A stretch of 64,000 bases of DNA from assembly GCF_040712315.1 (NCBI RefSeq), contig NC_134020.1:12805251-12869250 (forward strand), in the 5' to 3' direction. The stretch is from Castanea sativa (Eukaryota > Streptophyta > Magnoliopsida > Fagales > Fagaceae). Positions 12,009 to 54,690 of the stretch are shown here, piece by piece (within the stretch, counting starts at the first letter, position 1; each line of letters opens with the position of its first letter). The notes beneath the pieces were generated by a model that searched no databases, was not told the origin of the DNA, and saw only the letters and a list, made by a program, of their open reading frames with translations. The translations under genes and the position numbers were made by a program.

Positions 12009-14290
12009 TCATGCAGCAGGGTTGGAAGGTGGAGTCTGTGGAGTAGGTTGAACGGGCATATCCTTGACTGGCGGGGCCGTGAGATGGGCCTGGTTTTGAG
12101 TATCCTCAGCTTCGACATGAATATTGCTCGAGGCTTCTAAGTCGACCATCTCAACATGGGAATCAATCACCTGCACAAGGTCCCTCATGCTCGGCGTATC
12201 TTCATCATCTTCAACGCCGACCTAACTCTGAACGGGCGGGGGTGGGACTAGATAGGGAATCTGGTAGGGATTCCACAGAGGGGAATCTTCAGCAACTCCC
12301 ATTGCTTGAAGGGTAGCCAACCACCCTTCCCCGAACCTATGGTTCCGCGCTTGATGGATAATAGGCTCCACGAAATTTTCTGCCTCCGTGAAGCCTGCGT
12401 TATACCATTTATCCTCACAGGCTTCAAGACCATCCTTCAAACCAGCGATCTGGTTAGCTTGGGCCAAGTTCAAGCTATCCGCCATGGCTAACTTTAGCTT
12501 GGACTCACCCAATTTGGACATCAAATTGATCAGCTTTTTCTCTGTCGCTAATCGAGCTCTCTTGGCATCTACTGCTTTTCTTTCAGAAGCGTTAGCAGCT
12601 TCCTCTTTCTCCTTTGTTGTGTTCTCGGTAGCGGCTTTCTGTTCGTTAGCCTGATCAATAACCTCGGCCACCTCCTTTAGCCTCCCGTCAATAACGCTAG
12701 TCAACTGCGCTGCCTGAGAACATAAACAGCAATAAAATGATGAAACTGGGAAAATGCCTACATATCGCAATGCATGAAAGTGGGGAAATAAGAAATTACC
12801 GCGATGGTATGCCATTGCAGCCATCTAGCAAGTGACTCGTCATCCCCGTCCAAGAAGAAGTGAGCATCCTCGGGCAATAGGAGACCTTGTGCCAGACTCT
12901 GAGCGACCCGGCCTCCTTCGCCTTGCGCCTACAATCGAATAGTGGCGATCGCCAGCAGAGGTTTGTTGCCCAATTTAAAGACAAGTTGCCAACCAACCTC
13001 GGTCTGGGAAAAAGATGCTCCCTTTGTCCCAACCTGGGTAGCCGGTTGAACAGCGCCCGTTGTCTATTGGGTCTTGGGACCAACTTTCGCACGAGGTGGG
13101 GTTTTCAGGAGAGCATCACCCGAGTCGGGACTGATCCTCTCAGTAGCTTGCTTCCTCTTTTTGGTTTCACCAACGGGAAGAGTCTACCCCTTTCCTAGGG
13201 GGGATTGAGGTTGGGCCACGGGGCTGGCCCCGGGTAGGAACCGGGCAAGGGTCATTGTTCTCTTGCTCAATATTTTCTCTGTTGGACCAGATTTGACGCC
13301 CGAAGTGCCGATCAGCTCAACTGCTTCTCCTTCGGCTACTTGAGCTTAGGTGTCATTCCCCTCAATAGGAACGTGTCCCAGCTCTCTGAGAGCCCAGGAA
13401 ACTCGTTCGACTAACTTGTCCCTGATTGGGGCAAGATCTTCAGTAGTTATGTAGCAAGGACCAAGGTCTCGGGCTTCGCCGGTAGTCAATGAAGGGGGAA
13501 GGAAGTTGGCATGCCGGACGTCGATGTAAGATAGCAACGGGCTATCAACCAAAAGGGCTTGGCTGAAGGATTGCCAAGTCTTGTATACGGGGGTGCAACA
13601 GAGTATGAGGTGCGATGCCCGGAGCTGTCTGTCGCTGTGGACGAATATCTCGGACCTAAGCACGAAATTTAAGTTTTTTATATTCACCACTCTATGATCC
13701 TAGGTGAATACTTTACTGTCTGCAACAAAGAAATACGCTGGGTCAGTATTCAAAAAAAAAAAAAAATAAAGGAAAAATGACGAATTAGTGATCGACACGA
13801 ACCAACTTCACGCCGCGAAAGGGGACAAGGGATGTCACCGGTAAACCAGTTACCGTGCACCCGAACAAACTCTCCAGCAGAATTCCTGTTAGAATCAGGC
13901 AGGCATGAAATTAGCCATACCCGCGTATCTCTAACCTTTAAGTAATAATTGGTCTCTTTATTCCCACACAGACTGTACATGTAATTTATATCATGATGAC
14001 TCAATCTCAAACCGTATATTTGGTTCAACCTACTAACACAACTAACTACCCGGTAAAAATTGGGAGGAAGTTGGTCCGGGCACAAGCCATAAAACCTAAG
14101 GGTGTCGAGTAAGAAAGCATCCACAAGGAACCTAACTCCACCCTCCAGAATTGACATCATGGCAGTATGCCACATCTACATCCTCAGGGATGTTGAACGT
14201 TTGCCTAAAGGTGGCTAAGGACGCCTCAGTGTTCAGAAGGTGAACGTAACCAATCCTAGACACCAAGAGTGAGGAAAGGAACTAAAGTAA
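12009..14290 (-). pseudogene. Antisense accessory gene of element 1 (putative gypsy-type transposon domain)
   Basis: On the minus strand the N-terminal domain reads MSILEGGVRFLVDAFLLDTL then CPDQLPPNFYRVVSCV, the pattern of the 'putative gypsy type transposon' (transposase_28-like) domain. An intron 13811-13720 leads with phase 1 into an exon reading RVVNIKNLNFVLRSEIFV. A second intron, 12799-12714 (86 bp, phase 0), precedes a Glu/Lys/Ala-rich coiled coil (AAQLTSVIDGRLKEVAEVID onward). The frame passes a TAG at ~12222 and ends in a Pro-rich tail at 12009. A frameshift near 14175 and TAG stops disable it. Function is unknown; the coiled coil suggests self-association. The order matches the antisense genes of elements 2 and 3. 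Confidence 0.72.
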
Positions 14291-14400
14291 AAGAGAGAGG
14301 TAGAAGACTTACTTTAGGCTATAAGAGAGAGGAGTATTCTCGGCAGAGAGAGGACTCAGAGAATGGAGATCATAAAAATGAGGAGGGATTCGAAGTGGCC

Positions 14401-14408
14401 TATTTATA
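14401..14408 (-). promoter_or_regulatory. Antisense TATA box, element 1
   Basis: The minus strand reads CCTATAAATAGGCC about 110 bp upstream of the first recognisable antisense coding sequence. It is outside the LTR and points away from gag-pol. Equivalent boxes lie upstream of the antisense genes of elements 2, 3 and 4. Confidence 0.5.
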
Positions 14409-14670
14409 GGAACCACGAAGGAGGGGGTTAGCGCTGATCAATAAATGGGAAGCATGAAATCTTGCAAATCCCCACGCCAACTGTTGCGCGCACTCCGCAT
14501 TGGTTCATGAACCATCAGGCAATGATGAGAATTTGAGCCAACGGTCACATACCAGACGACTTTTCAAGAGCGCCTTAAATGAATTTTCTGAACCACCCTA
14601 CCCTTATCCGTTCAGTGTCTCGGATAACACTTATCTCTCATCCTTGACTCGTGCCCGGGAGCCGGGCATG

Positions 14671-14686
14671 AATCAAGGGGGGCTAT
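14671..14686 (+). other. Polypurine tract of element 1
   Basis: AATCAAGGGGGGCTAT precedes the TG that starts the 3' LTR at 14687, the expected place for plus-strand priming. Confidence 0.6.
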
Positions 14687-15378
14687 TGTACGGGACGTTG
14701 TTCTTTTGCAAGCCCAATACTCACAAAACCATCACAATAATGCCACGTATGTGAGGCCCAAGACCCGTTGGGCCACGAGTTCTAAAAAACATCATGTAGA
14801 AGGATTCCAAACTATATCAAGTCCACAAACACTGCTCGGATGGTCCTTGACACCTGACTTAAATTCGAAAAACACCATAAATCCTGTTATATTGTAAACT
14901 ATGAGCGTAAAACCCTGCTTGTTCGGGGACTGCAATTTCCCAGAAGGCTGGGCCCCTGTGGGCTCCGCGAAGTTTAGGGAATGTCGCTGCTAGGCAGTCC
15001 ATCTAGTGGTGGAACCAGTTCCAATGCCACCTTCACCTCTTCCCACTCCCAACTAATCACCCACTTCAGGGTAATAGTATTGGACCACTCCTCCCAGTTA
15101 CCATAAAGGCAATTATAATCCTTCCACTAAGGAAGGCTATAAATAAAAGATGGGAATTGGAGATGGGGGTCGAAAAAGTGGAGAGAGAAAATAGGGAGGA
15201 AACAGAGTGGTCATTTTGGGAAAGTAGGGAAGATATTATTCTGGGAACACAAGGGATAAGGTTATCAGGGGTGCCGAACATAGGACCACCCATTGTAGGA
15301 AATCCAAAAGCCCATAAAGTAAATAAATTGTAAGCCTAAATAAAGTTCAAGCCCAACAACTACTTTTGGGTACGCATA
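14687..15378 (+). repeat. 3' LTR of element 1
   Basis: It starts TGTACGGGACG after the polypurine tract. TATAAATA is at 15138-15145, and the end is GTACGCATA, where the 5' copy has GTACTCACA, so the terminal CA has become TA. Only 14915-15378 aligns with the 5' LTR. The next base (15379) is already inside the LTR of element 2. Confidence 0.75.
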
Positions 15379-15389
15379 ACGGTTATATG

Positions 15390-15427
<38 letters not shown>

Positions 15428-15750
15428 TGTATAACCTCCATGGCGGTTAAGGAAGTTATGCCCGAACCCTCTAACCTCCTCAAATATAGGGGACGTTACA
15501 AGCCTAATAATTGTTTCTAGGGTGTACTATATAAACGCTTATTCAAACCAGACAAAGGTACGTTTTTACATTTCCTGAAAAGTTGGAACTCCAAAATTTA
15601 AGAGAGAAAACTAACTTTGCCATCGGAGGGTTCTTGGCTGGCAACCCCGGTCACCTCTGATCATTGTTCTTTCTATTTCAGGCTTTCAAGACAGTCACCA
15701 CACCTTTGAAATTCGAAGTATCCAGTCTACTGATTTTTATTGCACCATCA
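15379..15750 (+). repeat. 5' LTR remnant of element 2
   Basis: It aligns with 25129-25488 throughout, from ACGGTTATATGAAAA to the terminal CACCATCA. A (TA)n run at 15394-15423 is longer than in the 3' copy. The TATA box TATATAAA is at 15528-15535. The break at 15379 coincides exactly with the end of element 1. Confidence 0.9.
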
Positions 15751-15770
15751 GTTGGCGCCGTTTGTGGGGA
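15751..15770 (+). other. Primer-binding site of element 2
   Basis: GTTGGCGCCGTTTGTGGGG follows the LTR terminus CATCA by one base. The TGGCGCCGT core suits priming by tRNA-Asp or a similar tRNA, as in many plant gypsy elements. Confidence 0.7.
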
Positions 15771-15836
15771 ATAATAGTGTTCTTTTCATTTGATTATTTG
15801 TTTTCAGCGATTCGCCTTTCCCAGACAAAAGGTTGA

Positions 15837-17230
15837 ATGGTTCGGACAGGATCGAGGGCTACCAGCCCAGGCCACCAGGAGAGTAGGGATGCTTCCAGTA
15901 ATCCTTACCGTGATTGTCAGTCAGCGCTTGTCATGCAACCGTCTTCCATTCAACATATACAGTCCATGACTACTACTATGGTGGAACTAACCCATCAGAA
16001 CCAAGAGTTGAATAGGGAGATCAATTTAAGGAGGTTGCATCATGAAAGGCATGCAGAAGGGCAACCCTAGAGTCAAAATGGTAGAGGAGAAAATGTGGAG
16101 TCCGAGAATCAGTCAAGGGGTACTACTTCAAGAAGAGTGCCACACTTGGAAAGGGAGATGGACCGGATAAGAAAAGCTATGGATGAAATGAAGGAGAATA
16201 TGAGACGGGCAAACCCCGTGGATGACTTAGTTCATTGAACGAACTCCCTTTTCACGGCTTCCATCAATGGTCATCCCGCACCCTCGAAGTTCAAAATGCC
16301 TTCCTTGGATTCATATGATGTAAATCATGACCCGTGTGATTACATCGCTACCTTCAAGACCACGATGCACCTTCAAGGGGTTCTGGATGAGATTATGTGT
16401 AGAGCATTCCCTACCACACCTAAGGGACTAGCGCGGGTGTGGTTCAACAAAATTCCCCCAAACTCTGTGGGGTCATTTGAGGAGTTCGGTAAGTTGTTCG
16501 ACAATAATTTTATTGGAGGGCAACGCCACAAGCGTTCCTCTTCTAGTTTGTTAACTATAAAGCAAGAGGAAAATGAGAGTTTGTGATCCTTCATTACTCG
16601 GTTCAATAGAGAAGCCTTGACGGTGGATGAAATGGACGATAAGTTGTTATTGGCTGCCTTCCATAATGGGGTCAACTCTAACTTGTTCATTCATAAGCTC
16701 TACGAGCAAGAACCACAAACTATGGCCGAACTCGTCCATTCGGTCCAAAATTTCATGAATGCTGAGGACGCGATCATGGCCAAGAAGAGGAAGAGAGCAG
16801 AGCGTTCGGAAGTGGCTCACCTGCGCCATCCAGATCAGGGTTCTCGTTCAAAGATGGCTCAGGCAGAAGAGAAAAAAGATAGAGACAGTAAGAAGGCGAG
16901 TTCCTCAGTGAGAAATCAGCAATACACTCCCTTGAACATGCCACTAGAGCAAGTGCTTATGCAAATCAAGGACGATCCATCCTTGAAGTGGCTAGAGAAA
17001 ATGAAAGAAGATCCTAACAAGCGCAATAAGAACAAGTATTATTGCTTTCACAAAGACCATGGGCACGACACAGACGAGTGTTTTGATTTAAAGCAGCAGA
17101 TAGAGAATCTTATCAGGCAAGGGAAGTTAAGGAATTTCCTTAGACGAGATCACAAGGACGAGAAGCAGAAGGCCAAAGTGGAAGAGTCATCACAACCCCT
17201 ACTTGGAGAAATAAGAGTTGTTATAGGGGA
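15837..17230 (+). pseudogene. gag of element 2
   Basis: The ATG at 15837 follows the leader closely and opens MVRTGSRATSPGHQESRDAS. A coiled segment (VELTHQNQELNREI) follows. The same frame continues past stops at 16068, ~16237 and 16584 with PSLDSYDVNHDPCDYIATFK, the gag-domain segment ending in WFNKIPPNSVGSFEEF, and ALTVDEMDDKLLLAAFHNG. A zinc-knuckle-like CFHKDHGHDTDEC lies near 17042-17080 and is intact. Gag forms the particle in which reverse transcription occurs. Confidence 0.82.
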
Positions 17231-17800
17231 AAGCTCAGCAGCTGAGTCGCCCAAATCAAGGAAGACATACTTGAAGGTGGTGCAAAATGTCCAGCTGTCT
17301 GGACGATCTCCCAGGACGAGGGAAGCTAACGAGCAATCCATTACATTCACGGATGAGGATGCTGAAAGAGTTCACCACCCCCACGATGACGCAATCGTTA
17401 TTACCTTGCTCATTGCCAATTATACGACCAGGATGGTGTTGGTAGACAACGGCAGTTCGGCGGACATTCTATATTACCCCGCCTTCTAATATATGAGGCT
17501 AGAACGAGATCAACTCTGACCAGTGAATTTGCCATTGGTGGGATTTAGAGGAATGAAGGTACAGCTTATGGGCACTATTACATTACCTGTAGTGGTTGGA
17601 GTGTACCCGGAGCAGATATCCAAAGAGGTAAACTTCCTTGTTGTTGATTGTTAATCATTATAATGCTATTATTGGAATGCTGACTTTGAATAGTTGGAAA
17701 ACAGTAACCTCTACCTACTATTTGTCCGCCAGATTCCCGACCGAGCATAGAGTGGGTCAAGTAAAAGGGGACCAATTAGCCGCCAGAGAGTGCTACTTAG
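17231..17800 (+). pseudogene. Aspartic protease region of element 2
   Basis: The gag frame runs on through RKTYLKVVQNVQ and HHPHDDAIVITLLIANYTTR to the active site MVLVDNGSSADILYYPAF at about 17434-17487, then meets TAA. A one-base frame change near 17650 separates FLVVDC from the following YNAIIGMLTLNSWK. Active-site residues are intact, but the frame is not. Confidence 0.78.
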
Positions 17801-19320
17801 CCATGTTGGCAATGGACGAGTACGTGCAGACAATAAGCATAGACGAGAGAAGGATTACAGCGGAACCCACTGAGGTGTTAGAAGATGTCCCTTTGGACGA
17901 GGGCAGCCCCGAGAAGTTCACTAGAATTAGGGTGAGCATGAAAAAGGAGGTAAAGCATACTCTGGTCCAATTTTTGAAGAAAAGTCTTGGTATCTTTGCA
18001 TGGAGTCACGAGGACATGCCGGGTATTGATCTAAGTGTCATTACTCATCTTCTAAATGTGTGTCCCTACTCTAAACCAGTGCATCAGAAGAAAAGGATTT
18101 TTACTCCTGAGTGAGACAATGCCATCAAAGAAGAAGTGCATAAGTTGATTACTGCGGAGTTCATCCAAAAAGTCTATTATCCGGACTGGTTGGCGAATGT
18201 AGTCATGGTAAAAAAGGCCAACGGCAAGTGGCGGATGTGCGTGGACTTTATTGACTTAAATAAGGTTTGCCCCAAGGATAGTTATCCATTGCCATGCATA
18301 GACCAATTGGTGGACTCGACGGTAGGTCACAAACTGCTGAGTTTCATAGATGCCTTTTCAGGCTACAACCAAATAAAGATGGATGAGACAGATCTAGAAA
18401 AGACTTACTTCATTACTAGCCAAGGGTTATTTTGCTATAAGGTAATGCCTTTTGGTTTAAAGAACGCAGGGACGACTTACCAAAGACTGTTAACCACATG
18501 TTCCATCCTCAAATCAAATGAAATGTGGAGGTTTACGTAGATGATATGCTGGTAAAGAGTTTGGACGAGGGAAGCATCTAGACAACCTTCAAGAAACGTT
18601 TGACACACTTCGGCGGTATAACATGAAATAATCCAAATCAGTGTGCTTTTGGAGTCTCATCAGGGAAGTTTTTGGGGTTCATGGTTTCACATAGAGGAAT
18701 TGAGGCGAATCTAGACAAAATCCAGGCGATACTAAATATGGAACCACTTAAGAACATCAAAGAAGTCCAATCTCTTACCGGACAAGTTGCCGCCCTTAAC
18801 ACATTTGTTTTGAAAGCTTCTGACAAATGTTTGTCATTCTTGAAAGTCCTTAGGAAGGTATTTGAGTGGACGGACAAATGTCAGAAAGCCTTCCAAGACC
18901 TAAAGGCTTCCCTCACGATAGCACCGTTGTTGAGCCCATCTATACCTAGAGAGGAATTATATTTGTATTTGGCAGTGTCCTTGCACGCTGTGAGCTCGAC
19001 ATTGGTTAGAGAAGAAAGACGGGTTCAAAAACCAGTTTACTATATGAGCCGGGCACTAAGAGAAGCGGAAGGACGATATTCGATGATGGGGAAGCTGGTC
19101 TTTGCTTTGATCACGGCTTCTAGAAAGTTGAGGCATTATTTTCAAGCTCATGTTATCAACGTCCTAACATATCATCCCCTAAAGAAGGCAATCAACAAGT
19201 TGGAAGCCGTAGGACGACTAATCTAATGGGCAGTGGGGCTCAGTGAGTTTGATATCAGATACCAACTAAGGAGTGCGATAAAGGCACAGACGTTGGCGGA
19301 TTTTATTGCGGAGTTCACTC
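17801..19320 (+). pseudogene. Reverse transcriptase and first RNase H of element 2
   Basis: Visible motifs are SHEDMPGIDLSVITHLLNV, PDWLANVVMVKKANGKWRM, FIDLNKVCPKDSYPLP, IDAFSGYNQIK and CYKVMPFGLKNAG. A one-base loss near 18490 throws the catalytic VYVDDML out of frame. Later frames give GFMVSHRGIEANLDK, QSLTGQVAALNTFV and the RNase H piece PVYYMSRALREAEGRYSMM. TGA at 18112 and TAA at ~19225 add further breaks. Confidence 0.8.
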
Positions 19321-19348
19321 CTTGTCAAGACGAGCTAGATGAACTCAA

Positions 19349-19762
19349 ATGTGGATTATTAATGTAGACAGATCATTCACACTATACGCAGGGGGGATTG
19401 GAGTCATACTTAAGTCCCTAAAGGGTGACAAGTTGGAATACGTAGCCCGTTTACAGTACCAAACCACCAATAACGAAGTTGAGTATGAAGCTCTACTCAA
19501 AGGGCTGGAATTGGCTAAGTCCCTAGGAGCAGAATCAATAATAGTCAAAGGAGACTCTCAACTAGTCATCAATCAGGTGAATGGAATGTGTGATACTAAG
19601 GAAGATAGGATGAAGAAATACCTCAATAAAGTGAAGCGGCTTGTCCAAAAGTTTAAAGAAGTGAGTTTTGTTCAACTCTCGAAGAAGGAAAATTTGGAAG
19701 TAGATGCCTTGGCAAGAGTAGCTTTGGTAGGAGGAGTTATGGACGAATATGACAGAATCTAG
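19349..19762 (+). pseudogene. Second RNase H (aRNH type) of element 2
   Basis: WIINVDRSFTLYAGGIGVIL, NNEVEYEALLKGLELAKSL, VKGDSQLVINQVNG and LEVDALARVA mark a second RNase H. The first motif has VDRSF where the other elements have VDG or TDGSS, so it is altered there. It is in frame with the following integrase region apart from a TAG at 19760. Confidence 0.75.
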
Positions 19763-19765
19763 TAC

Positions 19766-21052
19766 ATGCCGAGAATAGACCTTCCAGATATACATAAAAT
19801 AAGAGGAGGAGAAAATAAGATGAGTCCAATAGTAATCTATCTTAAGGATGGAAGGCTTCTAGAAGACAAGGACGAGACTAGGAAGCTGAGGGTTAAGGTT
19901 GCCGAGTACGTCCTCATAAATGAAGTGCTATACAAGCAAGGCTTTTCTCAGCCCTACCTAAGGTGCTTGGCTCCGAATGAATCAAACTATGTGTTAAGGG
20001 AGGTCCATGAAGAAGCATGTGGGAATCACTCGGGAGCAAGATCGCTCGTCCATAAGGTCATCTATGTAGGCTACTATTGGCCTACTATTCAAGCGGATGC
20101 TAAAGCTTATGTCAAGGTGTGTGACTAGTGCTAGCACTTCAGTAACATTCCTAGACAGCCATCGGAGTACCAGACCCCAATGATGGCCTTGTGGCCCTTT
20201 GCACAATGGGGATTGGATATCCTAGGTCCTTTCCTCCTGAGAACTAGACAGATGAAATTTTTGGTGGTAGGGATTGACTACTTTACCAAGTAAGTGGAGG
20301 CCGAACCTCTTGCAAAAATTACTTAGCAAAATGTTAAGAACTTTATTTGGAAGAACATTCTATGTAGGTTCGGAATACCTAGGGTACTAGTATTTGATAA
20401 CGGACGACAGTTTGACAACGCACCTTTTAGGGACTTTTGTGAACAGTTCGGAATTAAGAATCACTATTCCTCACCCTCTCACCCACAAGTAAATGGACAA
20501 GCAGAAGTAGCGAACCGATCCTTGCTGAAAATTATCAAGACTCGGCTCGAGGGGGCAAAGGGGGTATGGCCAAATGAGTTGCCAGGAGTTCTTTGGGCCT
20601 ACAGGACGACTGTGAGGACACCAATAGGAGAAACCCCCTTCAAGCTAGCCTATGGAAGTGAAGCAGTCATACTTGCAGAAGTTCATATGGCTAATCATCG
20701 AGTGATGAAATACCAGGAGAAAGATAATGAAGAGCAACTCTGTCTTAACCTCGATCTCATTGACGAGGTAAGGATGGACGTAGAGCAAAGGACAGCGAGA
20801 TACAAAAATCTTATGGCTAGGCAGCATGATGCCATGGTAAAATCTAGGCGCTTCAACGTTGGGGACCTTGTTCTCAAAAGAGTCTCCTTGGCAACCGGGA
20901 ATCCAGCTCATGAAAAATTGGGACCCAATTGGGAATGACCCTATAGGGTAATCAACTGCAAGAGGCAGGGGTCGTACTACTTGGAAGCTCTAGACGGACG
21001 AAAGTTAGAGCATCTTTGGAACGTGGAGCACCTGAGGAGGTACTATCAGTAA
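19766..21052 (+). pseudogene. Integrase of element 2
   Basis: One frame carries the zinc-binding region (HEEACGNHSGARSLVHKV, then VKVCD followed by two TAG codons where the family has Cys/Gln), the core motifs WGLDILGPF, VVGIDYFTK, VFDNGRQFDN and SSPSHPQVNGQAEVANRS, and the C-terminal VGDLVLKRV. TAG or TGA codons interrupt it several times. The natural stop TAA follows RRYYQ at 21050-21052, the same ending as element 3 has. Confidence 0.8.
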
Positions 21053-22160
21053 TGAGCTTGGACGAAATTTATCAAGGACGAGGTTATAGCTATGGACGAA
21101 GTTACTACTATGGTCTACGTGTTTACTCATGTTTGCTGTTATGTGTTCTTACTACTACTATTGTGTATTTTAAGAATACAAAGTGCACTAGTTCTTAAAC
21201 TTTTGCACCGTCTATAGATAAGTTTGTTCAAGACGAAGTTGTGTACATTTAAGTATTTTCCTAAGACACTAGCTTCTAAGCATGTGCCATATTTGTGGAC
21301 GATGTTTATATAATAATATGGTTTGGATTTCAATGTATTTAATGCATAAATCTAATTTCTATAGTAATACCCACAAGAAGGCAAAAGCCTAAAAAGAATG
21401 AAAATCTCTAAACGCAGGGATGTAACGTTCATAAGCTTTCCTCGAAATGAGGATAAAGCAAAGAAAAATAAGCTAAGACATACTCATCTGAAAAACAAAT
21501 GGAATAACTTATGCTCGTCCAAAGGAAAAGATGAAAAGAAACTGTAAGCCTAACGCCCAAGTAGTGGACGAGTTAAAGCCCATGGACGAGCATCTAGCCA
21601 AGACGCTCTAGTGTTCTGGACGAGTGAAGCACTAGAAACGTTTAGATGAATGGTGAATGCCAGTTGTCCATCTCAAGGACGAGGGAAAGAACTGGAAAAA
21701 TCATCACTGCCACTCTTTGGACGAATTATACTTGTAAAAATTGAATGACAAATGAGTCGTCCATACGCAAATAGGTCGTCCATACGAAAAGCACATGGAC
21801 GAACCTCTTACATCGTCCATAGGAAAAGCATATGGACGATCCTCTAATACTTAGAAGTATGCAGATCCCATAAAAGCCAGTAACATAAGTGGTATATCTA
21901 TATATATATAAACTCGTCCATGCAACAATATGTTCAAAAAATAGACAAATAATGCCAATAAACATTCATAAGTCAAAGCTTTAAAGGGTAGACGACCATC
22001 GTCCAAAAACCCTTATAAAGTAAAAGCCTAAAAGGCAATTGTTTATGAACTTATCCTAATTTCCTGGATTAGCAAAATGTACTTGAATAAATTTCAAATG
22101 GTCCCAGACTATGGACCTTATGAAAAAAAGAAGAAAGGAACTAAGATAAACTTTCTCTGA
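21053..22160 (+). repeat. Hairpin-rich spacer of element 2
   Basis: The word GGACGA or its complement TCGTCC recurs many times. At 21776-21802 TCGTCCAT pairs with ATGGACGA, and at 21812-21840 ATCGTCCATA pairs perfectly with TATGGACGAT over a 9-base loop. No protein is encoded. The position between pol and the antisense gene equals that of the tandem arrays in elements 1 and 3. Confidence 0.75.
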
Positions 22161-22167
22161 TACAAAT

Positions 22168-24380
22168 TTACTGAGGGTTGTCTCCAGCCTTAGGCTCGTC
22201 CTGGGCAGGCTGCGTGGTGGCATTGTCCTCAACCTTAACGTCTTTTAAGCTCGTTTGGAGGAGGGAGCTAGTAGAGCCGCCAAGGTGAAGTTTGATGGGG
22301 CTAAAATCTACCTTGGGGAAGCGTTCAACGGCGTCTATGTGGAAGTCTTCGAAGCCAGTAGCATAGTTCGTGTCCAACAGGTCAGTGAACTGGCTGGAAG
22401 TTTTGAATTCTTCCACAGCTACCTTTTTGGCGTCCTTGAGAAGGGTACCAAGCTCGTCATTCCTCTTTTGAAAATGATCCAGACGAGTGTCCTTCTCGAC
22501 AATGTCAGCCATTAGCTCCTCGACGAGATTTTTAAGTTCCTTAACCTTGTCCATAGCTTTGCCTGCTGCCTTAGCCCAGCTTCTATAGTCGTCCTTAACC
22601 TGCCGTAGCTTTGTCTCAAGCTTGGCCTTCTCCTTGTCTATCTTTGTGGCTTGTCTAGACGCTGCTATGAACTTTGACATGGCCTATGCAAACGATTAAA
22701 AGCCCTGTTAAAAATAAAACAATGGCCATAGTAAAATGACAGGAGGTAAAAGATAGAATTACATAGCTTGAAAAGGTCATGGACAAAAGAGTGCTCAAAC
22801 TCTTTCAAAGACATACCATAGCAAGCAACCACGTCCTCCTCAGTCACGGGTTTTTCAAACCTCTCCCAAGCTAAATCCTCATTTCCAATCATGTTCATGG
22901 GAACCTTTGGATGAGGCTGAGACAAAGCAGGAGTGACGACCTTGGAAGGGGTAAAACCAGCAGGCTCAAGAATTTCCACGTCAAGGACTTGGACAGGAAG
23001 CACTTGGGAAACAGAAGGGGTAGTGCCTGGCTTAACAATTTCAGTCTTAGACGACCTGTGTCTTACCTTCTTGTGCCCTCGACGACTGGGAAGATCTTCC
23101 AAATTTAGATTCTTAAACAGGTTCTTCTTTTATCCCTAATGGCAGGACGAGGCTGAGACTCCCCAATGGCAGGACGAGGCTGAGACTGAGCCTCTAGCCT
23201 AACAACCTTGTCCACTATCTCCTTCCCTTTGTTCTCCTTCATGGTAGCCATTCCTGCAAAATAATTTGTTAGAATCACTTCTAAAAATGACAAAAGGGAT
23301 CACTCAAAGTAAAAACTTACGTCTACGGACTGTAAGCTCGTGGGCTGTGGCTTCAGGAGAAGGCTCAAGACCAAGTCCCCAAGTAGCGAGGTGTTGAAAA
23401 GTAACCAAGGAGTGGAAATCCCTCTCAGGGTGAAGGCGAGCTTTTTGAATGCGTCCAAGGTAAAACTTGTTCAAGGATGGTCGTCTAACACCTGCAAAAA
23501 AGAAAGTTGGAGTTAAATAATTATAGAAAGACATATGTAATGAAGATAACAATGCGATAGTAATAAGCATACCTTCAGGACGAAGGTTCCCTAACTCTTT
23601 AGTATATGGGGCAAATGGATCCCTGCCAACCTCAACAGGGTGTCCTGCCTAGAAACCTGAGACGAAGAAAAACTCTGTCTTCTAGTTCCTATCTGACGTA
23701 ACCAAAGACTTTATAATCCTACAATTTCTCCCTCTGGCTATGAATTGATAAAAACCATGAGATTGGCTAATTTCAAAAGGTTTATGACAATAAAGGAATT
23801 CATCCACAATGAGAGGACGATCCCCTTCAAACACCTTTCTCCACAAAATTTGCATAGAGATGACTAGTCTCCATGCATTGGGGTTAAATTGACACAATCC
23901 TAAACCTAACCTAGTGAGTAGCTCCCTCGCAAAAGTGTTAAGAGGCAATCTAAGACCTCCTAAAAGATAGGCCTCATAAACTCCCACGCCAAAACGAGGT
24001 TGGCAACACCATTCATCTCGGACGGCTAACCTAGGGTTCAACTCGTCTGGGATTTGATACCAATTCCTAAGAGATGCTAACTTCTTGTCATCCGTCTTAG
24101 AAGGGACTCCCACAACGCAGCTATATATGGTTTCTACCTCGTCTTGGAAGATAGACTGGGGAGCACTTGAAGGACCAGCCCCAAACCCAAACGCTGCTCT
24201 CGTCCTAAGTTGTTCTTGAAAGACTTCTAGAGGAACCCCAGAAGTATACTCCTCGTCCGTGGTATTCCCCCCACTACTACTATCACTACTAGAGCCACTA
24301 TAGCTAGTGGAGTTATGATACTCGTCTATCTCTTTTTCAACACTATTACTACTTAACGAAGAAACGACAATTTCAAACAT
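22168..24380 (-). pseudogene. Antisense accessory gene of element 2 (putative gypsy-type transposon domain)
   Basis: Exon 1 (24380-23573) opens MFEIVVSSLSSNSVEKEIDE, a Ser/Asp-rich lead, then the domain: VYEAYLLGGLRLPLNTFARE, FNPNAWRLVISMQILW, VDEFLYCHKPFEISQ. Two TAG codons near 23680 and 23650 interrupt it; the first lies where element 3 has Trp. Introns 23572-23492 and 23320-23254 are in phase 1, with consensus splice sites. Exon 3 starts MATMKENKGKEIVDKV, holds a duplicated SQPRPAI motif and a one-base frameshift near 23110. The last exon (from ~22683) is a Lys/Glu-rich coiled coil from MSKFIAASRQATKIDKE to the TAA at 22168. No enzyme motif is evident; function unknown. Confidence 0.78.
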
Positions 24381-24542: not shown

Positions 24543-24550
24543 TATTTATA
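24543..24550 (-). promoter_or_regulatory. Antisense TATA box, element 2
   Basis: The minus strand reads GTCTATAAATAGTGG, 163 bp upstream of the antisense ATG at 24380 and outside the LTR. It suits a dedicated promoter for the antisense gene. Confidence 0.55.
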
Positions 24551-45975: not shown

Positions 45976-46858
45976 TGTACGTGCAAGTTAGATTATCAAA
46001 ACAATGTAAGAGAATGAATAGCGAATCTAATGGTACATTTAAGTGAAAAAGCTTGCGAACAATTAAAACGGAAACTTTAACACTTTAATGTCTAGAGAAA
46101 TGCAAATGCTAAACAAAGAAAGTAAGGAAGGGATGGGAAAATACGATTATAAACCTTTGAAAGGGATGAAAAACCAAGGGTGAGTGAAGGGGAGAATGTC
46201 CCTCACTCTTAGAGCTCTCTATTATGTGAAAGTCAAGGTTTTCATACAAGGGTGATGTTCTTCCCAAAGAAAGCCTTTGTTCTACCTTACTTTTCCTACC
46301 CAAGCTTTTACCTCTTTCTCTCTATCTTTCTAGGTTCTTGCCCTAATTGTTCAGCAACATGTTCTTTTTATTATACGAAGAATGTTGTTAGGTACATAAG
46401 GGCAGGTATTAAACCATGATTCCTCCATTTGTATCCAGATACAACTATTGTACAATGTTAAGGTTGGAGGAGAGAGAAAACATGCTGATGTCAGGGTAAT
46501 GGGATGAAAGGTGGCTCTGCTACAACATGGGGAGCAAGCCATAGACAAGGAAAGAGACGTTAGGGATACTAGGAGTGATACACATGTCCTCAATAGTGGT
46601 CTAACACAAGCTTAGCCAATAAGGGATGTTTTATAGCATTTGACTATAGAGGGTCGCTATCTCACTTTTACGCTAATGCTGGGTGTCCATGCCAGGTGCA
46701 AATCTCACTTTTCCTTAAGACAGTCACATCGTTGGAATAGGCTAAAGATGCTCTTTTTCAGCCAACATTCCCCTTCCTTTCCTCACAACTAGCCCACATG
46801 TAAAGTTCAGATCTAGCCACGTCAACATTCACACATGCCTTGGCTGATGTTATGTACA
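45976..46858 (-). repeat. 3' LTR of element 4
   Basis: It aligns with 62023-62841 and is 64 bp longer, mainly from a segment near 46128-46195 absent from the other copy. In plus orientation the ends are TGTACGTGCAAG and GTTATGTACA. The minus-strand polypurine tract GTTAGGGGGCTAA adjoins it at 46859-46871. Confidence 0.92.
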
Positions 46859-46878
46859 TTAGCCCCCTAACTGTCAAT

Positions 46879-48314
46879 TGTTAGGATTAGTGCCCTTAAA
46901 TCTTATTGTATGATGCTATGTATGATATTATGTATGACATTATGTAAGACATGATGTATAACTTAATATTGTGATTGATAAAGTTATTTTATTATTATCT
47001 AAAATAATGGTAACAAGAATATGGGACATTATCATATAGTCCATGAGATGCATTGTATGTGATTTATGTGAAAAGTCACAGAAGATGTAAATCACAAGTT
47101 CTTTGTAAACTCAGAATTTATAGTTCGTAGTCGGTGATGAAATTGGGCATTTCATCTGCGAAGACTATAACGTGTCAACTAAGATGATTTGTCTTGATCA
47201 TGGAAGTGGAAACTTCTAGTTGATATGTTGATATGTTTTAAGAGTTAAAACATATTGAACAGGACCGCTGTGAGATTTATTATTCTTCTAACGACTGTCA
47301 AATGAATAATAAATCTCACGACTTCTATTTGCATGAACTCTTAATCCTGAGTGAATAATGGACCTGATCATGAAGTGTAGGTTGCTTTGATATATCAGGA
47401 GTGAGATCTGAAGTGACGGTCAAAACCTCAGTATGTTGGGCAGCCACATTTAGTGTTGATGGAACATATATTTTTAAGATGGAATTCATAGTCTCTTGAT
47501 GGAGATATAAAATATTCCCTTGAGATAAGTTTAATGGTTTAAGTTATTCAGAGAGTTAGGCCTAACCACTTTAGTAAGAAAATACTAAAGTATATATTTA
47601 TGAAATTGGATTTCATAAATATATAATGAATAACTTTAAAGAATTAAACCGGGTACTCAAGGATAAGATGTAGTAATTTACAAAGTGGCAGTCTACGTTT
47701 ATGACTTTGTGTTACTACGAATATTTTATGAAAGGGTTACGTGTACAATAAAGTCTTGGGATATAATCTATTAATAAGGTCTAGAGTGCAATTATATTTA
47801 TATAGTGGTATTAAATATAATTAATGGTAACTTTGGACTTGTCAAGAGTTGACGGAAAAGCCCAAGGCCCATTGGAGCTAGTGTCTTATTGGTCCCTTTT
47901 GGTCCCACTTCAAGCCACACACTAAAGCCCAATTGGAAAGGCCCAATAGGCTAGCTCAATTAGATAATCAGTTAGTTATAAAGGGAGAAACATACAGAAT
48001 TTTTATTAGAAGTGATTAGAAAATAGAAAGAAACGGTGTGTGAGAGAGTGTGAGACACACTTTCATTCTCCCTTTGAAAAACTAATTGAGAGACCACACA
48101 TCTTGGGCGTAAAGTGGAATTGGAGTGAAGATTAAAAGTGTTCCCAAGTGCTTCTAATCTTTGTTTTGAATTTCTCCACACCAAGGTACGCTATCTTGCT
48201 CTTAAATTCTGAAATTTACATTGTGCACGTTATCAATCATGAATGAAATAGATCCTTGTTCGTTGCTTCCGCTGTGGGTTTTGCATGAGATGCAAAACCA
48301 GAATTTTTCCTTCA
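46879..48314. mobile_element. Solo LTR (1436 bp)
   Basis: TGTTAGGATTAGTGCC begins and CCAGAATTTTTCCTTCA ends the element, flanked by TCAAT at 46874-46878 and 48315-48319. There is no primer site, polypurine tract or coding sequence. Its first ~280 bp recur at 55232-55507. The end style resembles Copia LTRs. It landed 20 bp inside the 3' LTR of element 4, and TTATAAAGGG at about 47976 may be its TATA box. Confidence 0.88.
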
Positions 48315-48617
48315 TCAATGGCATTAATGACCAATGTCATTGATAGTTACATCGTATCAAACTTCAATGCTCTTTGTAATCATGCCTTATGACGTTCGAA
48401 GTTTGAGACACATGGCGTTCATAGGTGCTCTTAGCTGTTTTGGCGTTGCTTCGTTCCCCGCACTTAGCAGACAGGCATTCATCTTCACAAATGTCGTGTC
48501 TTTTCACTTGACCTTGGTTGTTGATTTAAAAGGAAAGAAACCTTCATTTATTCTTCATTCATTTTGCTTCCATACTCTTTCCTTCTTCTACACAGAAAAT
48601 CCTCCACTGTCAACAAA

Positions 48618-50642
48618 ATGGCCTGCCCTTCATCTATAACCTCCAACTCTCCCCATAGAGGTCTGAATTCTCTCAATAGTGACTCGAACTCTCCTAGTGT
48701 CAACAATTCACCCCCAACCATTCCTCCTCCTCCTCCTCCTTTCCCTTTTCTTATTTTCCCCCTCCTTCCTCAAGTTTTTCTTCCTGAAGTTGGGTGAGTC
48801 CAGTCTTGGAAGGTCAATGGAAGAGGAAGAAGAAGCAGATCCAGAGGAACTTAGGTTAAAGGCTGAAGAACATGCTAAAGATAAGGCATATCACGCCTTC
48901 ATAAGGGACATCCCTAGGCGAAGGAGAAGGTATAGGGGCTCCCAAACCATTTCCGACTTGAGTGTGATAGCCTTTGACTCTTTCAGTGGCTCGGATTTTA
49001 ATTCAAGGGGGTCAAACTCCTTGGCAAACTGTTGTGAAATTTTAAAATACTTGCAAGTGTACGAACCGTACCGAAGTATAGTTTGACAAGAACGAGGTTG
49101 AATCCACAGGGACTTGAATGAACGTAGGAAAATTAATTAAATCTTAACAAAATTAATCCTAATCTAGTTTAATAAAAATTGGTTCTTTTGAAATCAAATA
49201 AACTAAGCAAATAATCAAATTAAGCAAATAGTTAAACTAAGCAGAAGATATAAAACAATAAAAAGATGTAAACAATCAAGGAAAAGGAATTAAGGTTTTG
49301 GAATCTGCCTTGTAAGTCATATCAGCATATATTTATGATCATTAATTTTTCCAAACCAGTACATGATAATCTAGAAATCAATCTTGCTATCATGGAAGAT
49401 ATCATCATTAAAACTTATGTTTAAAAGTCTAAAGCATGTTCTTATTCGCTTCTTAAGTATAAGATCAAATCATCAATTGTATCCGTAGCCAAACAAATCA
49501 CAAGATATATCCAATTCTAAAAATCAAATCATAAATTGTATCCATTGATTGACAAATCACAAGCGATATCCAATTTTATAATCAAGAATTAATAAATCAA
49601 GCATTCAACTAATTAAGATAAATCCTAAATCATGAGAAAAACATGATTGAACTCATATCTAGAATCTCATTTTAGTCAATTGATATGAAGCAAGAACAAT
49701 TTAAATCATTAAAGAACTACTATTGTGGGAAAAATCAAATCACATAAATATTACTGATAATCCTTAATAAGGTTTCATCCTCAACCCTAATTATAAATTT
49801 AGCTACTCATAGTAATTGAAATAAAACACAAGAATAGAATACTAAACATTAAACTAGACAAATAAAATAAAACTAACTATCATGGAAGAAAACCAAAGAA
49901 GTAGCCGCACTCTTTATGTTCAGCCCCCAGCCCTAGCCCTAGCCTCTCTGAATTTTGCCTCAAGAATCTTTAAATAGGTCAAGGAATCCTATTACAAGTT
50001 GAATTCCCATTTGGGGAAAATCCAATATTTTTAGGCTTCACTTAACTGATAATTTTGGCCCATTTAATGTCAGAATTCGGACTTTTGGTAAACTACAAAG
50101 TTGTAGCCCTTTAAGTTAAATTTCCAGCTCAACTTGAATCATCTCGATTGGACATCTGAACAGAAAGTTATACCAAAAATACTAACTAATGTACAGGCTG
50201 GAATCCCAATCCGAATTGGACTTGGATTTGATGCAAATTTCCTTTGATTCCCTACTCCAATTGGACTTAAATTTAATTGGGTTGGCTTTCTTTAACTTCA
50301 TCATGGCCCTTGTAAATGTAAAGACCATTAGTATTCTTCTTTGCACAAATCCACTTATTTAATTTCATTCTCCTACAAAAGATAAATTCACGCAATAAGA
50401 TTCAATTGAGCACAAAATTGATTATTCACCATTATTCCAAAACTAAATATAAAATGCATGAATTAACTCAAAATAAGTATGATATTGCTTTCTAACAATA
50501 TATAAATATGCAAAATTAAGCTATTATCAATGCACATCACAAACTTAGACTCTGGTGATGAGGTGGAGGAGGACCTCGACCCTGACTACCCTCAAGAAGA
50601 CTCTGAGGGAGATTTAGATGCTTACGGGCACCATTCTCCCTA
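48618..50642 (+). pseudogene. Antisense acidic ORF of element 4, unknown function
   Basis: From ATG 48618 (MACPSSITSNSPHRGLNSLN) through a Pro-rich stretch, with a frame change near 48797, the translation continues MEEEEEADPEELRLKAEEHA, AFIRDIPRRRRRYRG and SDLSVIAFDSFSGSDF. The LTR-like insertion 49030-50539 splits it. The frame resumes exactly after the duplicated CAAAC with LDSGDEVEEDLDPDYPQEDS and ends at TAA 50642. A TTTAAAAGG about 90 bp upstream may act as its TATA box. I recognise no domain. Confidence 0.55.
49030..50539. mobile_element. Solo-LTR-like insertion (1510 bp)
   Basis: It starts TGTTGTGAAATTTT, ends GCACATCA and is flanked by CAAAC at 49025-49029 and 50540-50544. TTTAAATAGG near 49969 could be a TATA box. 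It contains an internal imperfect duplication of about 55 bp at 49465-49519 and 49525-49578. It lacks coding sequence and primer site, so a solo LTR or a non-autonomous LTR element is likely. Confidence 0.75.
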
Positions 50643-51189
50643 AGCTACTCACCTCCAATCCTACAATCTTTTGTGTTTTGTTGTTTCTTTTTTTGTTGTT
50701 TTGTTTTTATATCCATGTAAAGCAGGCCATACTATAGGCCTTAGATCGTTTTTTATTTTGTTAATGTATAAAAGAGGGGTGATGGGAGATAAAAGCCAAA
50801 CCAAATGTAAATCCCCCTTTTTCTTTTGAATATATTAATACAATATTGTTTTTGTTTCAAAATTTTGAGTACAAATTATATGTTTATTTTTATGTTTCCT
50901 TTTAAACACTTGAAAGAAAACTAAATTTGAGAAAAAGAGGCTCTTGCACAAAGGACCAACACATAGACACATCAATTAATCAAAGTATAGAGTGAAGGTG
51001 TAAAAAGGAACCTATTGGTGATAGGTCACGCCTTTTCACAATTTCTGTAATGGCAATTTTTTTTTTCCTGTAAACTAACTTGTTAGAGATTCTAGCATTT
51101 CCCCCTGTTGACATGTGTCAACAATTTTTTGAAAAGATGCCTCACTTTTGAATGACTCTTTTTAGAGGGAAAAGAATAACTGCCAAAGG

Positions 51190-51197
51190 TATAAAAG
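51190..51197 (+). promoter_or_regulatory. TATA box of the antisense mobile-domain gene
   Basis: GGTATAAAAGGGAGG lies about 90 bp upstream of the ATG at 51284 and is followed by a CT-rich leader. It is oriented against gag-pol of element 4, as in the other three elements. Confidence 0.6.
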
Positions 51198-51283
51198 GGA
51201 GGAACTACATCCCTCTCCCCATTTTTCTCATCTTCTTCTTTTCTAAACCTAAATCTCAAAATTTTCACAAGAATAAAACTCAT

Positions 51284-54200
51284 GGATGTCAAACGCAATC
51301 TGAGATCTAGTTCTTCAAAGGTCACAGAACCTTCAACCCCCAAAACCAATAGGCCATTGTTAGGAGGAGAAGAGAACCTTTTCCACAATGGAGCAGTGGA
51401 TCATCCCATCTTTCTTTAAAGATTATATGTTTGACAAAAGTCTTGATTGGGGACCTCTTCCTTGCTTTGCAAATCCTATCTACATAGCATGCAGGGAACC
51501 CGACGATCTCCTGACCAAGTATTTGGAATTGAAGCATATTCTTTGGCTCGGTACTTGCAGAGGAGATTTTTTTCCTACCACTGACGTGTCTTTCAATCCC
51601 ATTCCTTAGTTTCCAAATGCTGAAGAAGTTGGTGTTGAAGGGCGTTTACACATCCCCATTTTATGGATATCTTGCAGATAGTGCATCTTGTGTAGACTGT
51701 GTTGGTGTTTTTTGGCCTAAACATTAACAAGGATAGTGGAAGCCTCCTTTCTCTTTTGTAATTCTTCTACCTATAATTTTTTTCCAGGATGTTAAGAAGT
51801 CTCTCCTTCCCTTGATGATATTTATGAGGTATGAGACTTCCCCTGTTTGGTGATGGAGATGTAGCTAATATATCTTTGTCATTTGATGAGGCCAAAGCTG
51901 TGAAATTCCTTGAAGATGCAGTAAAGAAGACCTTAAAAAAACCTATACTGAAGACAGCAGGGAAAGAAAAAGCCCATAGTGAGGAAGTGCAGGAAGACAC
52001 TAGTGTTGGTGGTGAAAAAGGTTTCAAGCAGTGTTATGAAACCCAGCCCAGCCCGATCAGTCGAACCGGTGACCAGGTGACCTGGCAAATTGACCAGGCC
52101 ATGTAATCAATTGGATTGGAAAAGTATATGACTCAGTCAAAACCGGTGCAACCTAGTGGGTTTTAAGTAACCCCGTATGACCTAGTTGGGTTTTATTAAC
52201 TTGGCTGGGTTTGTGATAATATGGTAATATGGTAATTTAAATAAGAGAAAACCTAAAAAATCCAAAAAGCATTGTTATGTGTACCGTACCATCACATCAC
52301 TTTTCAGTTTTCACAATTCTCAAAACCTACTGCTATGGGCTGCTATTGTGCAAAGACTTTGTTGCAATCTTATGACATTTGTTTATTTTCCTTGTGAATT
52401 TTATATAATTTCTAATGCTATTGCTTATGAAACATTGATTTTAAATTATAATGGCGAGTTTAATTTAGGCATATGCCTATTGTTTTTTTTAAATTTACAT
52501 ATTCAAGTTATGATTTCTTAAACTTAATTTTATATATATTTAATTTTTAAATTTTTTTTATTTGACCCTATGGTTTGACTGATGACCCACTAGTTGAACC
52601 ATGACCTAATGACCTAGCTCTAGACCAGGTCAATGTCCAGTCTGGGTTTAATAACTATGGTTTTAGGGTCAACTTTTAGGGATGGATTATATACTTCTGG
52701 AGGGAGTATGTTGATGGCGTGGACGAAGAAACAAGCTTAGATTCTTTAAAAGAGGGCATAGATTTCGCTGTGGGAGAAGAGAATTCTAGCACTTATGAAC
52801 TTGAGGCTTTTATTACTTTCTTACTATCCTGCCATTTATTTAAAGGATATCCTCATGAGAAGATCCTGAGTAGACATTTCCCCTTAGCTATTAAATTGGC
52901 CAAAGGACACTCTTTCCCCATTGCTCCTTACTTCTTAGGGACTTTATATTCCCATCTAAATTGTTTCACTCTCAACCTACAATGCTCTTGGGGTAGATTT
53001 CAAGTAGAAACTTTTGTACCCGTAGCATCCTTACAAATTTGGTTATGGGAGCACTTTAGGAATTATGATCCTGCCCCTAAAGCTTTAAGTTCCTTTAAGA
53101 CCAGTTTGCCATCACCCTAAGGGTTACCACGATCATGGTGTTGGAATAAGGTTTTGGTATCTTCTGATAGCTTCTTTTGCAAGGTGTTGGATGACCGTAT
53201 TGATTGGATAGCAAGACCTTATTCCTCCTTGAGGGAGGACTTCCATCCTTGTTTCATTCTTTGAAAAATGAAACTATTTTTTGTTATAGAAATGGTCAAT
53301 AGACTAAGGAGGAGCTTTCTTTTGTTGCTTATGCCTTTACTTCCCATCTTCAGGCACGTTTCTAGGATGATTTTAAAACTCAAGCCTACAACCCTCAGAG
53401 ATTTGCCCACCAATTTGGTTTTGACCAAGGCTTACTAGAGCACTTCTCCACTTCAGCTCCACCTGTTACAGTGGCATCATTAGCCTTTAAGATTTGGAAT
53501 CTCATCAAGGTGTTAGTGCCTAGTCTTGAAGTTCCTCTTGCCACCCCCTCTAGAGTTGGATTACCTTTAGTTAGGTTCAAAACATGGTGGTCTGGGATTA
53601 GGGAGCGTGTCAGGAACTTTGGAGAAAGTGGATCCCAACGTGTGGATAGTCCACCTATCTTCCATGGTGATTTGACTTTGAAACTCTTAGCCAAAGCCAA
53701 ACCTTCAACTAGTAAAAGGAAAGGGAAAACAATCAATGTTCCCGCTGTGAAGAAACCAAGAGTATGTACCTTCCTTTCCTATTTTATTCTTTTATAATGA
53801 CTTCTTGATCAATGGCATGCATGACTTCATTTCCTTCTCTCTTTTTTGACCTTTGGCAGGTTAGAGAAGCTGCTCCTTTGACTCAAGCAAAAGTGAAAAC
53901 CACTCCTTTGGCATAAGCTGCCTCTATATAGGAAGTGGTTTTTGAGAAGGAAACAAAATATGATGCTGAAAGGGAGATTCTAATCGAATTTACATTGACA
54001 ATCTCCAAGAGAGACGATTTCACAGAAGTCACTTCCAAAGATCGAGAAAGTGAAAGCACCGAGGTAGACCCCAATCCACTATTCTCTTTGCTTTCTCCCC
54101 TTTTGAAAGTAGTGTGATCCAAGCAACTTTCAAAGTATCTTGAGATGATGGGGGATACTGGCAAGTGAACACTGCCTTTTAGGAGCTTTATATTGCAACA

Positions 54201-54690
54201 AATTGGGTTTGCCGTGTCCCAATTACAGTCTAAAGGTAAAATGGATAGTCTAACTCTTTCCTTTGATGAATTCCTTTCCACAAAGGTGATGTTGAGAGCA
54301 TAGGTTTTAATGTCGAATGGCTAAAGAGCCATGTCATTGCATTGAGGGACCTAAAATGAGTAGGGCTTTCCATTCACGCTTCTTTGTCCTCGATTCAACA
54401 GCTGAGGATTAAAAGAACCTCTTGTATCAACAAAGCTGAGGAAACAAAGTTGGCCATAAAGGCGCACAACATTTCAATCACCCAACTCTAAGAATCCAGA
54501 GCCAAGCTTTAAGAGGATTTATCATCCAAGTAGGAAGCCAGTTTCGCCCTTCAAACTCAGCTAGAAGGTGTCGCAGAAGAACAAGGTTCTTTGAACAAAG
54601 AAATTGAAAATTTGGAAGGCGAGCTAAAAGCTCTGAGCCATAAGCTCTGAGCCATTCGAATTTTTCTCTTGAACACATTAGTGTTCTTAC
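51284..54690 (+). pseudogene. Plant mobile domain (PMD, aminotransferase-like) gene of element 4
   Basis: After MDVKRNLRSSSSKVTEPSTP a frame change near 51380 leads to SLDWGPLPCFANPIYIA. RLPLFGDGDVANISLSFDEA, the acidic LEAFITFLLSCHLF, FPLAIKLAKGHSFPIAPYFL, LQIWLWEHFRNYDP and RFAHQFGFDQGLL are hallmarks of the plant mobile domain, known from MAIN/MAIL-type nuclear proteins and from transposable elements. A hAT-like element (52028-52658) splits the domain. An intron 53762-53859 (phase 0) precedes a Lys/Glu-rich C-terminus and a coiled coil (LNKEIENLEGELKALSHKL). Several stops make it a pseudogene. It sits between pol and the 3' LTR, antisense to both. Confidence 0.78.
52028..52658. mobile_element. 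631-bp hAT-like element inside the PMD gene
   Basis: The left end GCAGTGTTATGAAACCCAG and the reverse complement of the right end ATAGTTATTAAACCCAG form inverted repeats with more similarity inward (GACCAGGTGACC against GACCTGGTC). The flanks GGTTTCAA (52020-52027) and GGTTTTAG (52659-52666) match 6 of 8, suggesting an 8-bp duplication. With one TSD copy it adds 639 bp, a multiple of three. Confidence 0.65.

Follow-up and report, generated by a model that had tools for sequence, protein, structure and literature searches.

Why would four gypsy LTR elements of one locus each carry a protein gene directed against their own gag-pol? Most of the window, by which we mean the whole 64,000-nt stretch of DNA that was analysed, is occupied by four such elements, E1, E2 and E3 on the plus strand and E4 on the minus strand, and in all four the interval from pol to the 3′ LTR is established to hold a protein gene that runs against gag-pol. 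An earlier sequence-only reading had claimed an antisense gene in this same slot in all four elements, and the Pfam profiles bear it out: Transposase_28 (TRP28, PF04195) was detected on the minus strand of E1-E3 and the plant mobile domain (PMD, PF10536) in E4, each opposite pol.

The first element, E1, is located at 5239-15379 (LTRs 5239-5700 and 14918-15379, 92.2% identical) and E2 at 15396-25488 (LTRs 15396-15750 and 25134-25488, 93.0% identical). Both contain RT, RH, aRH and INT in order, the latter three seen in Pfam as RT_RNaseH_2, RVT_3 and rve, of which rve is partial and slightly below cut-off. E3 is located at 31274-41358 (LTRs 31274-31791 and 40841-41358, 93.6% identical) and harbors RH and aRH (RT_RNaseH_2 followed by RVT_3); its INT was assigned via similarity to E2. 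E4 is 16.9 kb long and extends over 45976-62841 of the minus strand, with the 5′ LTR at 62023-62841 and the 3′ LTR at 45976-46858, which are 89% and 86% identical in two pieces. Its RT lies at 57250-57777 and its aRH at 56186-56566 (RVT_3, 4.8e-6 and 0.0033); the RH match is weak (0.023), and the presumed INT piece matched no Pfam family and was placed by order only. Across the elements the order of the pol domains is RT, RH, aRH, INT. Perfect 5-bp target duplications were found for E3 (CATTT) and E4 (ATCCT). Judged by ORF and LTR ends, the region from pol to the 3′ LTR measures about 3.8 kb in E1, 4.2 kb in E2 and 3.8 kb in E3, and in two of these three a tandem array separates pol from the antisense gene, namely a 70-bp array in E1 (11271-11770) and a 44-bp array in E3 (37314-37996). 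Downstream of the E4 5′ LTR lies TGGTGACTTCACTAGGGAG, which may resemble the Ogre-type PBS (tRNA-Arg). The best named protein relatives come from Lithocarpus and Castanea, pointing to a host that probably falls within Fagaceae.

These features fit known clades. E1-E3 appear to belong with Retand, by the aRH between RH and INT, the antisense TRP28 between pol and the 3′ LTR, which is described as a Retand characteristic, and the long region from pol to the 3′ LTR, which in all three falls inside the published Retand range of 2.9-6.6 kb (PMC11963269). Likewise, E4 seems to fit Ogre by its PMD-encoding extra ORF and the aRH after RH. According to the published surveys, PMD occurs in 57% of Ogre and Transposase_28 in 23% of Retand elements (Neumann 2019, PMC6317226), and Retand clusters carry antisense ORFs in all cases, TRP28 in 97% and tandem arrays in about half, as E1-E3 do in two of three (Vicient 2025, PMC11963269); the latter survey scored ORFs of at least 600 nt, and shorter ones for TRP28 only. 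PMD is also given as the most frequent non-canonical domain in a screen of plant LTR elements (PMC9289625), and the PMD-A clades as encoded by Gypsy elements only (PMC5418596). Antisense TRP28 in Retand and PMD in Ogre are therefore known already (PMC6317226, PMC11963269), and a view of the feature itself as undescribed is not supported.

All four antisense genes of the window are decayed by stops and frame breaks. The PF04195 match is 7e-8 (33.0 bits) in E3, 7.8e-6 (26.5 bits) in E2 and 2.2e-5 (25.0 bits) in E1, the last being 1.2 bits short of the cut-off of 26.2. A profile built from 26 genomic TRP28 relatives matched the same three elements, always on the minus strand (E1 3.6e-10, E2 1.2e-26, E3 1.3e-26), and its next-best place in the window had an E-value of 3.7. 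When the four slots were compared in six frames, the top score was that of the E2/E3 antisense frame (111 bits, 39% identity), followed at lower scores by one sense frame (57.8 bits) and the E1/E3 antisense frame (34.3 bits). In their antisense frame, E2 and E3 are separated by 74 differences at first, 46 at second and 94 at third positions of 139 codons, with dS saturated.

The gene of E3 has all three introns, each bounded by GT and AG on the minus strand. Exon 1 (39597-40388) starts at the ATG at 40388, has a broken frame and contains TRP28 at 39649-40107. It is followed by intron 1 (39520-39596), exon 2 with a stop (39340-39519), intron 2 (39261-39339), exon 3 with splice sites at both ends (38875-39260), intron 3 (38800-38874; phase 0, 75 nt and open in this copy) and a coiled-coil-like last exon (38248-38799). 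In E2, also on the minus strand, exon 1 (23573-24380) starts at the ATG at 24380, is broken in frame and has TRP28 at 23655-24095; intron 1 (23492-23572), exon 2 (23321-23491) and intron 2 (23254-23320) follow, both introns being GT..AG and of phase 1. Intron 3 of E2 ends at 22684 with its acceptor, no canonical donor was found at the expected place, and the coiled-coil-like last exon (22168-22683) gave weak matches to Pfam coiled-coil families. E1 retains, on the minus strand, a part of exon 1 (13803-14175, TRP28 at 13843-14142), putative GT..AG introns 1 (13720-13802) and 3 (12714-12799) and a last exon (12222-12713) recognised by its open frame and splice acceptor, which by eye is charged and coiled-coil-like; intron 2 was not identified in E1. 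Exon profiles from the relatives gave weak matches, because those exons have strongly diverged: the exon-2 profile had its best window place in E3 (E = 0.0063) and its second-best in E2 (E = 0.034), and the exon-4 profile its best in E2 (E = 0.078), followed by E3 (E = 3.3). Thus both profiles have their two best window places where they were expected, in E3 and E2. The exon-3 profile found nothing in E1-E3, the third exon of E3 included, and the later exons of E1 were not found by profiles, the exon-4 profile having no match there. The outer coordinates proposed earlier for the E2 and E3 genes hold, and what had been read as one gene per element resolves into several exons.

In E4 the gene is of another kind. 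PF10536 was detected on the plus strand of this minus-strand element (8.3e-14), and the span 48618-54690, previously taken for a single gene, falls into two antisense units, an acidic ORF (48667-49083, plus strand) and an interrupted PMD gene at about 51190-54690. The latter runs from its start at 51283 to 53761 on the plus strand, with the PMD core at 52680-53117, a following part at 53366-53761 and stops elsewhere, and is split by an insertion at about 52027-52680. A GT..AG intron (53762-53859) separates it from a decayed last part (53860-54690) with a coiled-coil-like stretch at 54440-54660. This intron near the 3′ end of the gene has a GT donor in seven and an AG acceptor in five of eight copies, E4 counted. 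Weak matches to the acidic ORF (28-37 bits) lie upstream of the PMD gene, on its own strand, in five of seven relatives. The E4 block lies between copies of a 190-bp direct repeat, and a nested LTR element between the two repeats was considered as the carrier of the gene. This was rejected, as no LTR-like ends were seen by eye and six of the seven PMD relatives have pol of the same type opposite the gene.

TRP28 and PMD have no detectable homology (hhalign probability 0.2%), which rejects one common gene in four families. They share a plan, with the domain first and a charged, coiled-coil-like region last, as judged by eye and by weak Pfam matches. A sequence search for relatives of solved structure gave no credible match, the best being a designed repeat protein (E = 0.031). 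AlphaFold models of TRP28 were poor (pLDDT 56.5 and 56.8), the more diverse alignment of the second model bringing no higher confidence, and a fold search of that second model against the PDB gave 12 matches, the best at E = 1.3 and none at E ≤ 0.001. The DNA binding predicted for TRP28 (PMC11963269) is neither supported nor excluded by such models. No relatives of PMD or TRP28 were found in viral contigs, and public databases list some of these genes simply as hypothetical proteins (P0005, P0255 and P0327).

Relatives were collected from the source genome (716 Mb, 13 contigs). A loose first look for PF04195 gave 5,623 candidates, and the best 150 were scored, all of them (150/150) above the curated cut-off. 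From these 150, 20 places were hand-picked in roughly even steps, so that the sample leans to well-kept copies; among 28 loci, L001 and L008 were dropped as duplicates of L009 and L010. Each TRP28 locus was taken with flanks of 6 kb towards the expected antisense pol and 3 kb in the other direction. At 17 of the 20 places, RT or INT lies downstream of the gene in the opposite orientation, and two of these 17 (L019 and L025) also have an extra pol piece on the gene's own strand; the other three (L009, L016 and L020) show no pol within 9 kb, and at none of the 20 was pol on the same strand only. For PMD the seven best matches outside the window were used, and six have pol domains on the opposite strand; L032 has none in 7.5 kb, and same-strand-only pol was again not found (0/7).

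The antisense frames are constrained at the codon level. Across 26 TRP28 ORFs the median dN/dS was 0.15 and every one of the pairs used was below 1 (77/77; 77 of 325 pairs, with 0.02 < dS < 1 and at least 80 codons), and 0.593 of the differences fall at third codon positions. Pol domains of the same loci gave 0.10 for RT (40 of 136 pairs), 0.09 for RH (41 of 136) and 0.11 for INT (35 of 120). Four wrong frames of the same TRP28 DNA gave 1.22, 1.39, 1.14 and 1.78, and a value of 0.24 was obtained for the mirror frame, which has its third positions in common with the true frame. The PMD core has a dN/dS of 0.14 (E4 and seven relatives, 28 pairs, range 0.04-0.67) and the following part of the gene 0.26 (28 pairs); pol of the PMD loci gave 0.13 for RT and 0.09 for RH (10 pairs each), with median dS undefined because many pairs are saturated. 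Pairs with dS of at least 1 were excluded for TRP28 and kept for PMD. Both antisense genes thus appear to be constrained closely to the level of the pol domains (0.09-0.13). The TRP28 families used in the selection and splice tests are others than those of E1-E3, sharing about 30% domain identity with E3. Purifying selection in the relatives agrees with the earlier proposal that retention of the genes implies a useful role, and the ratio near 1 that would have spoken against it was not seen in the copies sampled, which for TRP28 are copies of these other families.

Frame changes of the antisense gene recur at the same places in many TRP28 loci, and three GT-AG introns are seen at these fixed places. 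The GT donor was present in 24/25, 24/24 and 22/22 copies and the AG acceptor in 21/24, 22/23 and 18/21 for introns 1, 2 and 3, respectively, with both sites in 19/23, 22/22 and 17/20. Median lengths are 86, 83 and 91 nt, phases 1, 1 and 0, and pyrimidines make up 75-81% of the sequence before the acceptor. Retention would disrupt the reading frame in 19 of 23 copies for intron 1, in 19 of 22 for intron 2 and in 17 of 20 for intron 3. Frameshifted debris was therefore rejected as the sole cause of the gene pieces, since the frame changes of the relatives sit at conserved GT/AG sites. Several observations count against the explanation that we prefer, among them the broken state of all four window copies, the poor TRP28 models, the missing canonical intron-3 donor of E2 and the weak or absent matches of the later exons. 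A further one is the divergence of the introns: over 136 pairs, the introns have median distances of 0.29, 0.27 and 0.32, above those at codon positions 1 and 2 of exon 2 (0.19 and 0.14) but below that at position 3 (0.58), for which the gap-friendly alignment may be a partial cause. The choice of the intron offsets, as of the TATA pattern and bins used below, followed inspection of the data.

Each gene of the window is also preceded by a candidate promoter outside the LTR. The TATA box TATAAATA is located on the minus strand at 14401-14408 in E1 and at 24543-24550 in E2, 170 nt before the ATG at 24380, and TATAAAAG at 40628-40635 on the minus strand in E3, 247 nt before the ATG at 40388, and at 51190-51197 on the plus strand in E4, 93 nt before the ATG at 51283. 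No other TATAAAWR motif occurs in antisense orientation in the stretch that separates the gene from the 3′ LTR in E1 (742 nt, 0.039 expected), E2 (753 nt, 0.029 expected) and E3 (452 nt, 0.027 expected), and the other strand of the same regions has none. The promoter region of E4 is AT-rich (the motif was found three times, with 0.28 expected), and therefore its conservation counts there, not the motif alone: CAAAGTATAAA is found upstream of the gene in all seven PMD relatives, the sequence after the motif being unlike the others in L031. In the 26 TRP28 relatives, TATAWA occupies 29 locus-bins between about -1450 and -1150 (8, 18 and 3 in successive bins of 100 nt), and 1 of 260 locus-bins nearer to the domain. 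Their offset is similar to that of the window elements. Most are TATATA, which is nearly alike on both strands; being near-palindromic, it does not fix the direction in these relatives.

Position, orientation, codon constraint, conserved splice sites and TATA boxes can be read from the DNA itself. From them we consider it probable that each element carries an autonomous antisense unit, with its own TATA promoter, a spliced mRNA and a translated protein. The promoter, inside the element and outside the 3′ LTR, would direct a Pol II transcript back towards pol. This would be spliced, with three introns for TRP28 and at least one for PMD (we infer both its expression and its splicing in the host), and would yield a protein that begins with TRP28 or PMD and ends in a coiled-coil-like region. 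Reverse transcription copies the genomic RNA, which is of the sense strand, so that antisense introns cannot be spliced from it and are kept in each cycle; reversal of the gene thus lets introns survive an RNA life cycle. With less certainty, the protein may act in the nucleus on DNA or chromatin in a way that favours the element, the PMD protein perhaps by interfering with the transposon-silencing PMD proteins of the host, MAIN/MAIL1 among them. The gene23 of maize Grande is described as transcribed antisense from its own promoter and encoding a nuclear protein (PMC7264820). Together with the DNA binding predicted for TRP28 and the silencing of transposons by host PMD proteins (PMC5418596, PMC7156037), this leads us to consider a nuclear regulator favouring the element the most likely biochemical role. 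Our search agrees with the earlier statement on the role, as none is established in the literature examined.

That the antisense RNA itself is the functional product, pairing with genomic RNA and tuning copy number or silencing, with the ORF incidental, we regard as unlikely. Antisense transcripts could yield dsRNA and siRNA (PMC7264820) and the antisense RNA of yeast Ty1 offers a precedent (PMC12786077), but such a function does not predict the third-position bias (0.593), the pol-like dN/dS or the conserved introns of fixed phase. The control by antisense transcription that the sequence-only reading had proposed keeps only this small chance, the codon constraint and the conserved splice sites pointing to a protein instead. 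The slot could also be an old nested DNA transposon that maintains its own gene, seeing that PMD occurs in MULE transposons (PMC5418596) and that the direct repeat flanks the E4 block. It is, however, fixed in relatives, inverted repeats of at least 100 nt are absent from the window and no similarity to other TEs is reported (PMC11963269), so that we hold this to be very unlikely. Host genes captured by chance, through transduction, and useless to the element are highly improbable in our view: PMD has host relatives in MAIN/MAIL (PMC5418596) and the introns suggest acquisition as DNA and not from processed mRNA, but 23 of the 27 sampled places have the gene opposite pol, and its constraint is like that of pol.

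Introns, TATA boxes, codon constraint and orientation together favour a translated, spliced product over a purely regulatory RNA. Moreover, introns preserved on the reverse strand suggest that the gene entered as DNA and not as a processed mRNA. More speculatively, and with considerable doubt, two unrelated intron-bearing genes, TRP28 in Retand and PMD in Ogre, may each have entered this one reverse slot as DNA, at an early stage of the Tat lineage, and have been retained with TATA promoters as nuclear anti-silencing proteins. If uptake as DNA is true, the origin would be neither mRNA transduction nor an intronless RNA virus, and the antisense orientation would be explained, as the reverse strand would let an RNA-replicating element own a split gene.

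As far as our searches reach, the anatomy of the gene, that is promoter, introns and pol-like constraint, is apparently new. Antisense ORFs, their transcription and their possible roles have been reviewed by Vicient and Casacuberta (2020, PMC7264820), who in their conclusion urge authors to seek antisense and spliced transcripts. Among titles and the beginnings of abstracts we found no paper on introns in the antisense genes, and neither PMC11963269 nor PMC7264820 uses the word "intron" in its main text, a point of difference from E1-E3 and their relatives. To the Ogre description in PMC6317226, which includes PMD and the aRH domain, E4 apparently adds the antisense orientation of the PMD gene, its putative intron and its TATA box. 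Grande gene23 resembles the E1-E4 genes by its published description, being antisense, placed before the 3′ LTR, driven by its own promoter and encoding a nuclear protein (PMC7264820). Both PMC11963269 and PMC7264820 mention HTLV, whose antisense genes are likewise accessory protein genes on the antisense strand of a retroelement, but their promoter is described in the 3′ LTR (PMC7264820), whereas the TATA boxes of E1-E4 lie outside it, and we claim no homology for this likeness.

The antisense gene seems to be a functional component of these elements, not noise. Such genes are abundant, and a structure that is spliced, promoter-driven and constrained like pol tells annotators what to seek. 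The same anatomy makes their function testable, and the introns bear on the mode by which the elements acquired them.

The minus-strand LTR element E4 bears, besides its antisense plant mobile domain (PMD) gene, a second antisense ORF, which is acidic and is located at 48667-49083 on the plus strand. Weak matches to it (28-37 bits) were detected in five of the seven PMD-bearing relatives (the seven best PMD matches outside the window), where they lie upstream of the PMD gene and on its strand. The PMD gene of E4 is itself interrupted by an insertion at 52027-52680, which was not found in the PMD relatives compared; judged by eye, each of its ends resembles the inverted copy of the other. The entire antisense block is bracketed by a pair of direct repeats of ~190 bp (47021-47219 and 55322-55508, 88% identity), in which no LTR-like ends were seen by eye.

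Outside all four elements, an open frame of 485 codons is located at 2191-3648 on the minus strand. By eye it contains many Arg, Ser and Asp repeats, and its predicted product looks like an RS-type nuclear protein. The plus-strand elements E1 and E2 are established nearly end to end, with a gap of 16 bp according to the LTR alignments (15380-15395), and an (AT)n run (15393-15424) adjoins their junction.

Finally, E4 harbors leucine-rich-repeat fragments at 60970-61583 (minus strand; Pfam LRR_1, 8e-11), in sense orientation between gag and the 5′ LTR. They adjoin an imperfect inverted repeat of 0.4 kb (60603-61016 and 61538-61966), and are perhaps a piece of a captured receptor gene.
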